From the NCBI RefSeq assembly GCF_003096415.1, contig NZ_QEKH01000020.1, positions 34,260 through 98,259 on the forward strand: a stretch of 64,000 nt of DNA, read 5' to 3'. Below, piece by piece: positions 58,730-62,495 of this stretch. The notes below the pieces were generated by a model. It saw only the letters and a list, made by a program, of their open reading frames with translations. It was not told the DNA's origin and did no database searches. A program made the translations under genes and the position numbers. This stretch comes from Victivallis vadensis (GTDB lineage: Bacteria; Verrucomicrobiota; Lentisphaeria; Victivallales; Victivallaceae). The stretch's first letter is position 1; the number at the start of each line of letters is the position of its first letter.

Positions 58730-59191
58730 ATGCCGCGACAGACTCCGGCGGATCCGGTACTCGCCACCAATAAAAAGGCGTTTCACAACTATCATATCAT
58801 CGAACGTTTCGAAGCCGGCGTCGAACTGGTCGGAACCGAGGTGAAAAGCTGTCGCGACCGCGCGATCGTGATGAACGAGGGTTATGTGACCATCAACAAC
58901 GGCCAGGCATGGCTGCTCAATGTTCATATCGCGGTCTACGGCTTCGGCAACCGCTTCAACCACGTCGCGACCCAGAAGCGGCGGCTGCTGCTGCACCACA
59001 ACGAGATTCTGAAGCTCGCCCAGTGGCTCGGCCAGAAGGGCGGCACCATCGTCCCGTTGAAGTTCTACCTGAAAAAAGGACTGGTCAAGGTGGAGATCGC
59101 GTACTGTCAGGGCAAAACCCACGGCGACCAGCGCGAAACCCTGCGCCGCCGCCAGTCCGACCTGGAGATGCGCCGCGCGGTCAAACGCTGA
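58730..59191 (+). CDS. smpB: SsrA-binding protein SmpB
   Basis: The 153-aa protein has the tmRNA-binding beta barrel marks NKKAFHNYHIIERFEAGVELVGTEVKS, NVHIAVYG, RRLLLHHNEI and KFYLKKGLVKVEIAYCQGKTHGD. A basic tail follows. It is needed for trans-translation. No tmRNA gene is seen adjacent. It closes the grpE-dnaJ-smpB operon before a strong terminator. Confidence 0.97.
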   Translation: MPRQTPADPVLATNKKAFHNYHIIERFEAGVELVGTEVKSCRDRAIVMNEGYVTINNGQAWLLNVHIAVYGFGNRFNHVATQKRRLLLHHNEILKLAQWLGQKGGTIVPLKFYLKKGLVKVEIAYCQGKTHGDQRETLRRRQSDLEMRRAVKR

Positions 59192-59249: not shown

Positions 59250-59681
59250 TCAACGGTGATACGTCCGACAAACCCGGATCAATCCGACATCGGTTTCCTC
59301 CCGCAGCACCGGATGTCCGGGGCCGTCACAGCCTCCGGCGACGACCGCCAGAATCGCAGTGAACAGCAGCACACCGATCCTGCCGAACAGCTTCGCCAGC
59401 GCTTTGCAGCGGCTGATCACCGCCGCATCCAGAATCGCCATGATGCCGCGCGCCGAATATCCGGCCAACGCGATTGCAGCGGTACGCAGGTTGTCGGACT
59501 GTACATATTCGCGGCACAGCCAGTGCACCAGCAAGCCGGCGAATACCGCAATCAGGATTTCGGCCGTTCCGATTCTCAGGTTGTACGGTTCGCCGCGTTT
59601 TTTGCCCACCAGCGTGCGGATGAAGCCGCCGAAGCCGCCCAGCAATATCACCATCCCCAATTCCCTGATCATCTGTTTCAT
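59250..59681 (-). CDS. Holin-like small membrane protein, candidate retron-associated effector
   Basis: The 143-aa protein has about four hydrophobic segments (MVILLGGFGGFIRTLVG, ILIAVFAGLLVHWLC, TAAIALAGYSARGIMAIL, IGVLLFTAILAVVAGG) and a charged C-terminal tail. The layout, with a G-F-x-G/R-x-L-x-G first helix and ALAGYSARGIMAILDA, resembles phage holin families of the lambda/phage_holin_3 type. Such proteins permeabilise the inner membrane. The ATG at 59681 is fixed by AAAGGAG. It is transcribed divergently from the retron RNA, sharing a 115-bp promoter region. No other phage gene is near, so it is not a prophage remnant by context. The effector role is inference. Confidence 0.65.
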   Translation of the reverse strand: MKQMIRELGMVILLGGFGGFIRTLVGKKRGEPYNLRIGTAEILIAVFAGLLVHWLCREYVQSDNLRTAAIALAGYSARGIMAILDAAVISRCKALAKLFGRIGVLLFTAILAVVAGGCDGPGHPVLREETDVGLIRVCRTYHR

Positions 59682-59749: not shown

Positions 59750-59777
59750 TTGCAAAAGATAAAAGATGTACTATTAT
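59750..59777 (+). promoter_or_regulatory. Promoter for the retron RNA and reverse transcriptase, TTGCAA-16-TATTAT
   Basis: TTGCAA (59750-59755), a 16-nt spacer and TATTAT (59772-59777) predict a start near 59784, about 12 nt before the a1 arm. The -10 lies in the perfect palindrome TACTATTATAGTA (59769-59781), which can serve both strands. Confidence 0.6.
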
Positions 59778-59795
59778 AGTATAAAAGGGTTGTTT

Positions 59796-60079
59796 GACAG
59801 TCGCAATGATTTTTCCAGAATGCGGGTCTTCCTTCGGAAGACAGGGGCGGCGAGTCGCCGTCTTCGGACGATACTTCCGGTATCGGTGCTCATCTTCACC
59901 TGCCGGCAGGCGTTCTTTGCGGCCCTGCGGTCCGGGCCGGAGCGGCGTGTAACGCCACGCTGCGCGTAGTTTAAACACGCCTGTTTCCGTCCCGGCGCCG
60001 CATCATCCGCAAAGCTCCGCTTTCCGGCGGTGCGAATCTTTCGCAGAATCGTTTTCAGTGGAAAATCATTGCGGCTGTC
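59796..60079 (+). ncRNA. Retron msr-msd RNA flanked by a1/a2 inverted repeats
   Basis: The first 20 nt (59796-59815, starting GACAGTCGCAATG) pair with the last 20 (60060-60079, ending CATTGCGGCTGTC). The duplex has 18 Watson-Crick and 2 G-U pairs. This is the expected a1/a2 arrangement of a retron RNA, placed directly upstream of a retron-type reverse transcriptase. Between the arms are hairpins typical of msr: GTCTTCC-TTC-GGAAGAC (59826-59842), CGGCG-AGT-CGCCG (59848-59860) and CGATAC/GTATCG (59869-59885). Next comes a longer stem system, GGCGTT (59909-59914) with AACGCC (59951-59956) enclosing CGGCCC/GGGCCG, then TGCGAA-TCT-TTCGCA (60031-60045). The msr/msd boundary and branching G cannot be fixed by eye. 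Confidence 0.85.
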
Positions 60080-60107
60080 TTTTTGAAAAACAGGAGGGGG
60101 ATGGAAG

Positions 60108-61073
60108 ATGGATGCGGAAGAAACAGCCTCCGGATTGCCGGAGCTGCCGGACGTCGAAGCGTTGTCGGAACTGCTGCAGATCGCCCCGAAATGGCTTTAC
60201 CGGATTTCGAACCACACGCCCCGCTTCTACCGGGTCTATGCGATTCCGAAAAGGAACGGAAAATTCCGGATCATCGAAGCTCCCCGCCCGCTCCTGAAAC
60301 GGCTTCAGCGCCGGATTCTCACCTCACTGCTCAATCCGGTGGAAGCCAGCCCTTACGCGACCGCGTTCGAACGCGGCAGGAGCATTGCGGACAACGCCCG
60401 TTTCCACCTGAACCAACCGGTCGTGCTCAAGCTCGACATTCGGAATTTCTTTCCTTCGCTGAAATCACCGCCGGTCTACCGGCTCTTTTTTGAGCTCGGT
60501 CATCCGCCGCCGGTGGCGGCGCTGCTCACGCGGCTCTGCTGCCTGTGCGGCCACCTGCCGCAGGGGGCGCCGACCAGTCCCCGGCTGGCAAACCTGCTGC
60601 TGCGTCCGGCCGATTACCGGATCGCGGCGTGGATCGGCCGCCGTCCGATCCAGTTTACCCGCTATGCGGACGACATCACGCTCTCCGGGGATTTCGGCCC
60701 CGAACATATCGCCGAAGCGATTCAGGTCTGCCGGCACGAACTGGGCAGGCTCGGCCTGCGCCTGAACCGCGGCAAAATCCGGATCGAACGGCGCTGCCGC
60801 CGCCAGACCGTGACCGGGCTGACCGTCAACGAGACACTCCACGCGCCGCGCCAAATGATCCGGAAGCTGCGGCAGGAAATGTTCTATATCCGCAAGTACG
60901 GCTGGGAAGATCGCCCGGAATCCGAACTGCACCGCCTGATCGGCATCGCCAACTTCATCCGGGATGTCGATCCCGGCGACGCCGCCTGCACCGCCCATCT
61001 GGAAAAGCTGCACGCGATCCTCTGGAACCGGCGCCAAAAGCAATTGAGTGAGCAATTCCGCCGCGGCCTGTAA
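60108..61073 (+). CDS. ret: Retron-type reverse transcriptase
   Basis: The 321-aa protein has the seven-motif RT core: YAIPKRNGKFRIIEAPR, VVLKLDIRNFFPSL, HLPQGAPTSPRLANL (150-164), the catalytic FTRYADDITLSG (YADD 186-189) and LRLNRGKIRI. It also has the two retron-specific marks: NAxxH as NARFH (96-100) in region X, and VTG (235-237) in VTGLTVNETL of region Y. The length is normal for retron RTs. It would reverse-transcribe the adjacent RNA into msDNA. The ATG at 60108 has AGGAGGGGG (60092-60100) 7 nt upstream, 28 nt after the a2 arm. No gene follows on the same strand, so there is no downstream effector. There are no maturase, HNH or DGR features. Confidence 0.93.
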   Translation: MDAEETASGLPELPDVEALSELLQIAPKWLYRISNHTPRFYRVYAIPKRNGKFRIIEAPRPLLKRLQRRILTSLLNPVEASPYATAFERGRSIADNARFHLNQPVVLKLDIRNFFPSLKSPPVYRLFFELGHPPPVAALLTRLCCLCGHLPQGAPTSPRLANLLLRPADYRIAAWIGRRPIQFTRYADDITLSGDFGPEHIAEAIQVCRHELGRLGLRLNRGKIRIERRCRRQTVTGLTVNETLHAPRQMIRKLRQEMFYIRKYGWEDRPESELHRLIGIANFIRDVDPGDAACTAHLEKLHAILWNRRQKQLSEQFRRGL

Positions 61074-61148: not shown

Positions 61149-62495
61149 TTACAGCATAATCGACCCGCCGGAGGCCAGCAGCTCCCGGATTCTGCGGCAA
61201 TCGGTCTTCGTAAAATCCGCACCATGCTCCAGCGCCTGCGTCGCGGCGACTCCGGCGGCCTCGCCGCACTGGTTCAGGTTGACCATCACCCGGACCGCGC
61301 CGAATGCGTCGCGGTCCGCATCCAGCATCCGTCCCGCCGCGATCAGGTTGCGCATCCCCTCCGGCATCAGGCTGCCCAGCGTAAACCGGTAGAAAGGCAG
61401 AACCTCCCCTTCGGGCAGCCAGCGCGACCGGCAGACCGGCTTTCCTCCCCGATACGTGACCGCCTCGCCGTTCAGCCTGCGGAACGAGATGCTGTCGTCG
61501 CCGTCGCTGTGAATATCCACCGGATAAGTTCCGTTACCGATCGCATCGGGGAAAGCCGTCCCCGCCAGCATCTCCTCCCCCTTCAGCCGGGCGCGCGACT
61601 CGATGTGCAGCCCCTCGCGGATGCCGACCGCCGACGGAAGCGCCTGAAGCGACACCCGGTTCGGCCGGCACTCATTGCGGATCATTTCGAGGATCGCGCG
61701 CAGCTGCCGCCGGGAGTCGAGTTCGGCGCGGGTCGTCGCGTCGGCCTCCTCAGGGTCGTAATGCAGGACCCGGGTGCCGGCCAGCATATAACAGGAGCTG
61801 TTCGGAACCTCCATTCCCCACCAGTAGCCGCACGGCAGTTCCGGATACTTGTCCCGGAACTTTTCGACCATCGCGGTCAGGTTGAAGTCGCCGAGCGTCT
61901 TCCACCCCTCGAAACGCGCGCAGCTGGTCGGCGGCTGGAACCGTTCCGGGCGGCGCATCGCACACCCGGCGGCGCGGCAGAGCACGCCGTCGCCTGAAGC
62001 GTCGATGAATGCTCCGGCCCGGATCGCGAAGCGCCCTGCGTTGTTTTCCGCAATCACCGCCTCCACCTCGCCGGGCGCGCGCATCACCGCGCGGGAAAAC
62101 GAGGTCTGTAAAAACAGCCGGATATTCGGATGCTCCTCCACCAGCGCATCCAGTTCCAGCGTCAGCAATTCGCTGTTCAGCCGGATGTTGAACTCCGCCG
62201 GAGTGCGGAAGTTGCCGATGCCGCCGCACCGCTCCAGCCGCTCCATCATCTCGAACGTCAGCCCGCCGATCACCTGCCGCGTCCCGGTCGCGTCGAACAC
62301 CGAGTGCCACATGCTGACCAACCCGCAACTGGCGGTGCCCCCCAGCCGGTTCTGCTTCTCCACCAGAATCACCCGGGCGCCGAGCCGGGCGGCGCGGACC
62401 GCCGCGAATACGCCGGTGCAACTGCCGCCGATCACGCAGACATCCGCCTCCGCCGCGACCTTCACCTGCTCCGCCGGAATCAGGATCGTTTCCAT
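61149..62495 (-). CDS. FAD-dependent oxidoreductase (FAD_oxidored family)
   Basis: The 448-aa protein begins with an FAD-binding Rossmann motif (VCVIGGSCTGVFAAVRAARLGARVILVEKQNRLGG). It continues with AGAFIDASGDGVLCRAAGC, then RVSLQALPSAVGIREGLHIE and a terminal VNLNQCGEAAGVAATQAL. Such PF12831-type proteins are abundant in Lentisphaerota and Planctomycetes and oxidise unknown, often carbohydrate-linked substrates. No signal peptide is seen. It is divergent from the PocR-AraC regulator, which may control it. GGAAGG precedes the ATG. Confidence 0.87.
   Translation of the reverse strand: METILIPAEQVKVAAEADVCVIGGSCTGVFAAVRAARLGARVILVEKQNRLGGTASCGLVSMWHSVFDATGTRQVIGGLTFEMMERLERCGGIGNFRTPAEFNIRLNSELLTLELDALVEEHPNIRLFLQTSFSRAVMRAPGEVEAVIAENNAGRFAIRAGAFIDASGDGVLCRAAGCAMRRPERFQPPTSCARFEGWKTLGDFNLTAMVEKFRDKYPELPCGYWWGMEVPNSSCYMLAGTRVLHYDPEEADATTRAELDSRRQLRAILEMIRNECRPNRVSLQALPSAVGIREGLHIESRARLKGEEMLAGTAFPDAIGNGTYPVDIHSDGDDSISFRRLNGEAVTYRGGKPVCRSRWLPEGEVLPFYRFTLGSLMPEGMRNLIAAGRMLDADRDAFGAVRVMVNLNQCGEAAGVAATQALEHGADFTKTDCRRIRELLASGGSIML

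Follow-up and report, generated by a model that had tools for sequence, protein, structure and literature searches.

A retron branch related to type III-A, without nearby PRTase or winged-helix genes, in Victivallis vadensis and its order

Closest described retrons

Retrons are usually described as a reverse transcriptase (RT), a template RNA and a toxic effector, and their division into types is reportedly that of Mestre et al. 2020. The retron described here lies in a 64,000-nt stretch of Victivallis vadensis DNA (the window). Its closest described systems are the type III-A retrons, which combine a PRTase, a winged-helix protein, a non-coding RNA and an RT (type names follow PADLOC labels and PMC12548924). 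The RT_III-A profile is the best one for the window RT, whose branch adjoins theirs in the RT tree; their RNA, like that of the window, lies directly upstream of the RT, and an msr-like hairpin with GAGTC at its tip occurs in 8 of 22 PRTase-bearing loci. In contrast, the window's branch has no nearby PRTase or winged-helix gene. Its RNAs also tend to be longer, with six independent spans of 268-353 nt against a type III-A median of 229.5 nt (Mann-Whitney p 0.03), the latter an approximate value taken from the 14 of 22 PRTase-bearing loci with arms of at least 12 pairs, in which the RT starts are unsure.

Retron-Eco1 (Ec86) is the nearest solved structure to the model of the window RT (30% identity, TM 0.77-0.79), and its RNA is shorter than that of the window, with a span of 159 nt in three loci that we take to be Ec86-like (L099-L101). 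Unlike the window retron, it was solved with a linked effector, as the title of 7v9x indicates. The second-best RT profile of the window is the Ec107-like one, which represents Retron-Eco5 (Ec107). To our knowledge, this retron has no known effector. Passages of a 2019 review describe Ec107 as intergenic and with no evident mobile element, in which it resembles the window; its RT carries YCDD where the window has YADD (PMC6868368). The likeness between the two is one of profile and description. Retron-Sda1 likewise has a type III-A1 RNA without the usual PRTase, but differs in the HipA/DUF3037 gene that replaces the PRTase beside it, according to passages of PMC12548924. Retron-Bth1, as presented there, shares with the window the absence of an apparent effector yet makes RT-DNA; unlike ours, it has a group II intron within its RT (PMC12548924). 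Neither of these two is described, in the accessible part of that text, as a branch-wide loss in Lentisphaeria (PMC12548924).

Retrons without an apparent linked effector are already known, and the novelty of the present case is moderate. The original prediction had singled out the absence of a co-oriented effector gene as the unusual point; the absence itself held up and extends to all eight branch members of known context, but a cassette of msr-msd and RT is not new as a layout and was called 'standard' in the relevant passage of the 2019 review (PMC6868368). The same prediction spoke of a complete retron, which is too strong for a type III-A relative that lacks the PRTase and winged-helix proteins of that type, and we class it as an effector-less variant akin to the type III-A retrons. 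Our literature search, with most subscription papers outside its scope, found no title on this Lentisphaeria branch among those listed.

Template RNA and its kinship

All RNA features lie on the forward strand of the window. The arms a1 (59796..59815) and a2 (60060..60079) form 20 consecutive pairs (18 Watson-Crick and 2 G-U) and close a span of 284 nt upstream of the RT, exactly as had been predicted; the same search in 100 dinucleotide-preserving shuffles of this stretch gave at most 11 arm pairs. The folding energy of positions 59790-60085 is -152 kcal/mol (z -9.5), which none of 200 shuffles equalled. A sigma-70-like promoter candidate (TTGCAA and TATTAT at a spacing of 16; 59750..59777, forward strand) precedes the RNA as a consensus match only, and the region holds four promoter-like sites on both strands against a mean of 0.4 in shuffles.

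Directly after a1 stands CAGA (59816..59819) with a candidate priming guanosine at 59818. CAGA is a named variant of the retron priming site in passages of PMC6868368, and AG follows a1 in all eight branch RNAs, the row of one relative (G015) sitting in another register in one alignment. Downstream, the predicted fold contains msr stem-loop 1 (59826..59842, 7 pairs), for which a helix appears at this place in 8/8 folds; msr stem-loop 2 (59844..59864), GCGGCGAGTCGC, which covaries, carries GAGTC at its tip and is likely to be the hairpin recognised by the RT; and stem-loop 3 (59869..59885, 7 pairs), absent from some relatives. A long msd hairpin of 50 predicted pairs (59900..60030) would provide most of the RT-DNA template, and a short predicted hairpin before a2 (60031..60045) would sit near the RT-DNA 5' end. 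The short hairpin is also terminator-like and could reduce transcriptional read-through towards the RT gene; three terminator-like sites were found in the region against 2.3 expected.

At gathering thresholds, Rfam gave no match in the RNA and RT region. A match to Methylosinus-1 (RF03108) at 59927-60142 (18 bits against a cut-off of 145.1, E 0.058), lying in another register, was taken as chance. This match is full-length though weak, and a Methylosinus RT (P0096) is a 41% homolog of the window RT.

The same RNA plan recurs in seven relatives of the same order, which have arms of 12 to 21 consecutive pairs directly 5' of the RT and arm-to-arm spans of 268 to 353 nt. Shuffles matched a locus's own arms in 1/100 and 3/100 cases for two relatives (L181 and L017) and in 0/100 for the window and the other five. 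The arm sequences differ between members: own arms, having been picked for pairing, pair at 100% of inner positions, whereas swapped arms pair at 60% across all swaps and at 55% in the 50 swaps without the three near-copies. Loss of a1/a2 pairing among the relatives was looked for and not found, and the predicted folding with a1 paired to a2 is supported by arms that stay complementary. The a1/a2 stem, stem-loops 1 and 2 and the long hairpin appear in all eight predicted folds, including that of the window, with 24 to 50 pairs in the long hairpin; the short hairpin before a2 is clear in six folds, weak in G015 and absent in G332. Stem-loop 2 is paired in 72/72 cells, and both sides have changed in 3/9 pairs, which 7/500 shuffles reach. 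Its covariation score was reached by no shuffle, and its further pair types were no better than shuffles (239/500 as high). Because the msd parts cannot be aligned with one another, the RNAalifold consensus of the whole RNAs is limited to 19 pairs.

A covariance model of 63 positions built from the eight branch loci matched 7 of 137 genomes of the order, each time just upstream of a branch RT. Under stricter filters it missed G015, one of its own source sequences, and the only other match in the window's genome was weak (21.4 bits, E 0.4). Over 62 chosen sources (679,503 bases), the top eight matches were its own source loci, and the next four, weak at 16.6-22 bits, lay on the coding strand upstream of III-A-like RT genes, three of them in loci that carry a PRTase (L037, L030 and L098). 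Since these weak hairpin matches are correctly placed upstream of III-A-like RTs, the window RNA is likely III-A-related, as its RT is.

The hairpin with a GAGTC tip flanked by six or more pairs occurred in 4/8 solo loci (the branch members of known context), 8/22 PRTase-bearing loci and 2/59 other RT loci, and in 0 to 0.3% of shuffled sequences. Both of these other loci, L021 and L025, belong to the III-A portion of the RT tree. Its exact GCGGCGA-TCGC form is found in seven of the eight solo loci and in none of the 22 PRTase-bearing ones. The GAGTC-tip hairpin marks III-A-like loci and may serve as a signature for III-A RNA searches across phyla. Instances upstream of an RT, from several phyla, are L018, L021, L025, L027, L028, L029, L030, L037, L096 and L098.

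Reverse transcriptase, neighbours and distribution

The RT gene (60108..61073, forward strand) begins with ATG and encodes a type III-A-like retron RT of 321 aa. The motifs that had been predicted were confirmed at their residues: Y186-A-D-D189, N96-A-x-x-H100 and V235-T-G237. Across 19 aligned homologs, A97, H100, Y186, A187, D188, D189, T236 and G237 are invariant, and N96 and V235 nearly so. Within the branch, YADD is present in 8/8 RTs, the window's included, with no internal stop in any; NAxxH is kept in seven (HAxxH in G015) and VTG in six (ITG in RUG12838, VNG in G007). Changes in these motifs are also seen in validated retrons, according to passages of PMC6868368.

The top PADLOC model for the window RT was RT_III-A (PDLC02942, 315.7 bits), followed by RT_Ec107-like (284.3 bits). 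PDLC02942 was also the top model for all five other branch RTs scanned; branch scores of 283-316 bits lie below those of two PRTase-bearing loci (459 and 401 bits). By its best PADLOC profile, the window RT is assigned to the III-A family; it is 32 to 39% identical to PRTase-bearing RTs among the best 80 of 575 loci. The NCBIfam model retron_St85_RT scored 216.8, under its cut-off of 235. Furthermore, an AlphaFold2 model (mean pLDDT 92.2) was compared with the PDB by Foldseek; retron RTs, Ec86 first, fill the top 18 of the 50 matches listed, and enzymes of group II introns, DGRs and DRTs rank lower. Profiles and predicted fold together support a grouping with retron RTs and not with group II, DGR or Abi RTs; kinship with the latter had been looked for and was not found. 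The retron identity put forward in the original prediction is supported by these profiles, the predicted fold and the RNA plan kept in relatives.

In a 97-row RT tree, which took in retron-like RTs only and leaves the distinction from other RT classes to profiles and fold, the window and all seven relatives of known context fall in one 35-row branch beside type III-A (SH-aLRT 99). Eight of these rows have a known and 27 an unknown context. Branch support is SH-aLRT only, the outgroup does not form one side of any branch, and three of the 22 PRTase-bearing loci are not included. None of the eight members of known context has a III-A PRTase or winged-helix gene near the RT. By comparison, 22 of the 60 RT loci compared (the eight solo loci included) carry a co-oriented, upstream PRTase-like gene whose start lies some 1.26-1.56 kb before the RT frame, and in three tested ones PADLOC identified PRTase_III-A, with WH_III-A for their small neighbours. 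The adjoining RT branch contains seven PRTase-bearing rows, four PRTase-less rows and 19 of unknown context. In it, L021, L022 and L024, from other phyla, are III-A-like RTs without a PRTase (the flank of L025 is too short to judge), and therefore effector loss or replacement recurs, which speaks against a single clean story. In L022 (Microscilla), a 505-aa RT ORF is followed by another ORF, presumably AbiEii-like by its looks.

Genome-wide, an alignment search for the PRTase gave no match in five of the eight solo genomes and short pieces in three (E 8e-4 to 7e-3), and full-length matches in 3/3 control genomes. Two PADLOC WH_III-A models, the only ones used, yielded one partial match in the eight genomes (G332, E 0.002); together they found 3/3 controls, each model missing some. 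Control genomes give comparable matches as their second hits, and these weak partial matches are therefore read as unrelated. As completeness is highest for the window's genome (99.5%) and G007 (99%) and 78-90% for the other six, the absence is firmest in the first two. The absence of a recognised linked effector is real, and there is no convincing III-A effector in the genome as far as searched.

Around the window retron, SmpB (58730..59191, forward strand) lies upstream and co-oriented, followed by a LydA-type holin-like ORF (59250..59681, reverse strand; Pfam PF16083, 36.9 bits), and an FAD-dependent oxidoreductase (61149..62495, reverse strand) lies downstream of the RT. The only co-oriented neighbours are SmpB and, beyond the oxidoreductase, an AraC regulator. 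DnaJ and SmpB stand together in 9/9 genomes of the genus, and the RT, holin-like and FAD proteins had no match at the SmpB loci of the eight other genus genomes, within flanks of about 1.5 kb. We rejected the holin-like ORF as a membrane effector: it has no match in the eight other genus genomes (E up to 1e-5), a second copy (L198) sits at another place in the same genome, which has just one RT match, and none of the genes beside the other solo retrons resembles it. The second copy adjoins an ORF that, on a tentative reading, looks like a patatin.

A small Cys-rich ORF of about 75 aa stands directly upstream of the RNA, co-oriented with the RT, in four of the eight solo loci (L178:6631-6861, L179:10031-10258, L185:5842-6069 and L186:8880-9098), three of them near-copies. 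As a partner it was likewise rejected, with no match in the window's genome at E 1e-4 and an occurrence in 10/61 genomes, eight of them without a branch RT. Some families of neighbouring genes accompany it repeatedly in genomes that have no such retron, and its position beside the retrons is therefore tentatively treated as island co-residence.

The branch RT occurs in 2/9 genomes of the genus (the window's and G007) and 8/137 of the order, a sparse occurrence that makes the retron accessory. Among 387 genomes drawn from the phylum, the six RT matches at E 1e-55 all belonged to the order, and a GTDB species scan placed two of its best 80 of 575 loci in this branch (L017 and L019). A plasmid DNA search with the locus gave no match, and a phage protein search gave 47 records, all below 60% identity. 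The near-copies L178, L179 and L185 (genomes G016, G007 and G175) come from three genera of one family, with RTs 83-88% identical and dN/dS of 0.10-0.14. The trio shares the upstream Cys-rich ORF, which suggests that this stretch may have moved between genera, possibly recently.

Possible mode of action and alternatives

The reading we prefer, and regard as rather probable, is that of a III-A-related retron branch whose eight context-known members lack the PRTase and winged-helix genes and whose predicted msDNA probably works by way of a host partner encoded at another locus. The RNA would fold with a1 paired to a2, the complementarity being present in the sequence and the fold predicted. By analogy with characterised retrons, the RT would likely recognise one of the msr stem-loops (stem-loop 2 is a candidate), prime from the 2'-OH of G59818 and copy the long msd hairpin; in Ec86 and Ec73, region Y of the RT binds to a stem of the msr, according to passages of PMC6868368. 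Production of msDNA by the window retron is accordingly a prediction of this analysis, and a role in phage defence, called plausible in the original prediction, stays conjectural. The RT-msDNA complex might then sense foreign nucleic-acid proteins or serve as a decoy for them. The weakest step is the output: as neither a recognised toxin beside the retron nor, in the genome, a convincing III-A effector came to light, it would likely run through a host protein encoded elsewhere. A bolder version, which we hold tentatively and consider somewhat doubtful, is that a branch within one order shed its toxin for good and became an RNA and RT device, its msDNA complex rewired to a core host protein.

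Several other explanations have to be weighed. The RT-msDNA complex may itself be the effector and act without a partner protein, for example by titrating phage SSB or recombination proteins. No gene besides the RT is common to all eight loci, and RT and ncRNA defence systems such as DRT2 make an antiviral product from the ncRNA (passages of PMC12039810 and PMC11100668). However, defence by tested retrons is said, in part of PMC8989520, to need the accessory protein too, and the predicted fold is nearest to retron RTs, not DRT enzymes; we consider this explanation unlikely. A linked effector of unrecognised type may also stand beside the retrons, since genes of unknown function adjoin several of them. 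Decay offers another route: an ancestral III-A retron could have lost its effector while RT and RNA persist without function. Effector genes are indeed missing here while many sister retrons keep them, seven of the eight other genus genomes have no RT match, and three of the eight members depart from the motifs of region X or Y. Nevertheless, YADD is intact with no internal stop in 8/8, the arms and stem-loop 2 stay paired while their sequence changes, and a single ancient loss would require long neutral survival. A relic is quite improbable, as the RT coding sequences of the related trio, with dN/dS of 0.10 to 0.14, show purifying selection.

Least probable, and in our view very unlikely, is an orphan antitoxin or anti-addiction module in which the solo RT-msDNA neutralises PRTase toxins of invading intact III-A retrons. 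Retron toxin neutralisation is usually specific, and the window RT, although III-A-like together with (weakly) its RNA, is just 32 to 39% identical to PRTase-bearing RTs among the best 80 of 575 loci. Moreover, no convincing III-A effector was found in the eight host genomes. Full operons do neutralise toxic accessory proteins in Eco4, Eco9 and Sen2, but those of Eco1 and Eco6 are not toxic, as passages of PMC8989520 report.

In summary, the preferred reading leaves an RT and an RNA that are kept under selection without a recognised effector, so that what RT-DNA does alone becomes directly testable. The 1.3-kb cassette, with its eight natural variants, provides a test case for retron function without a toxin. 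If the toxin was indeed shed and the complex rewired to a host protein, retron function would no longer require a dedicated effector.
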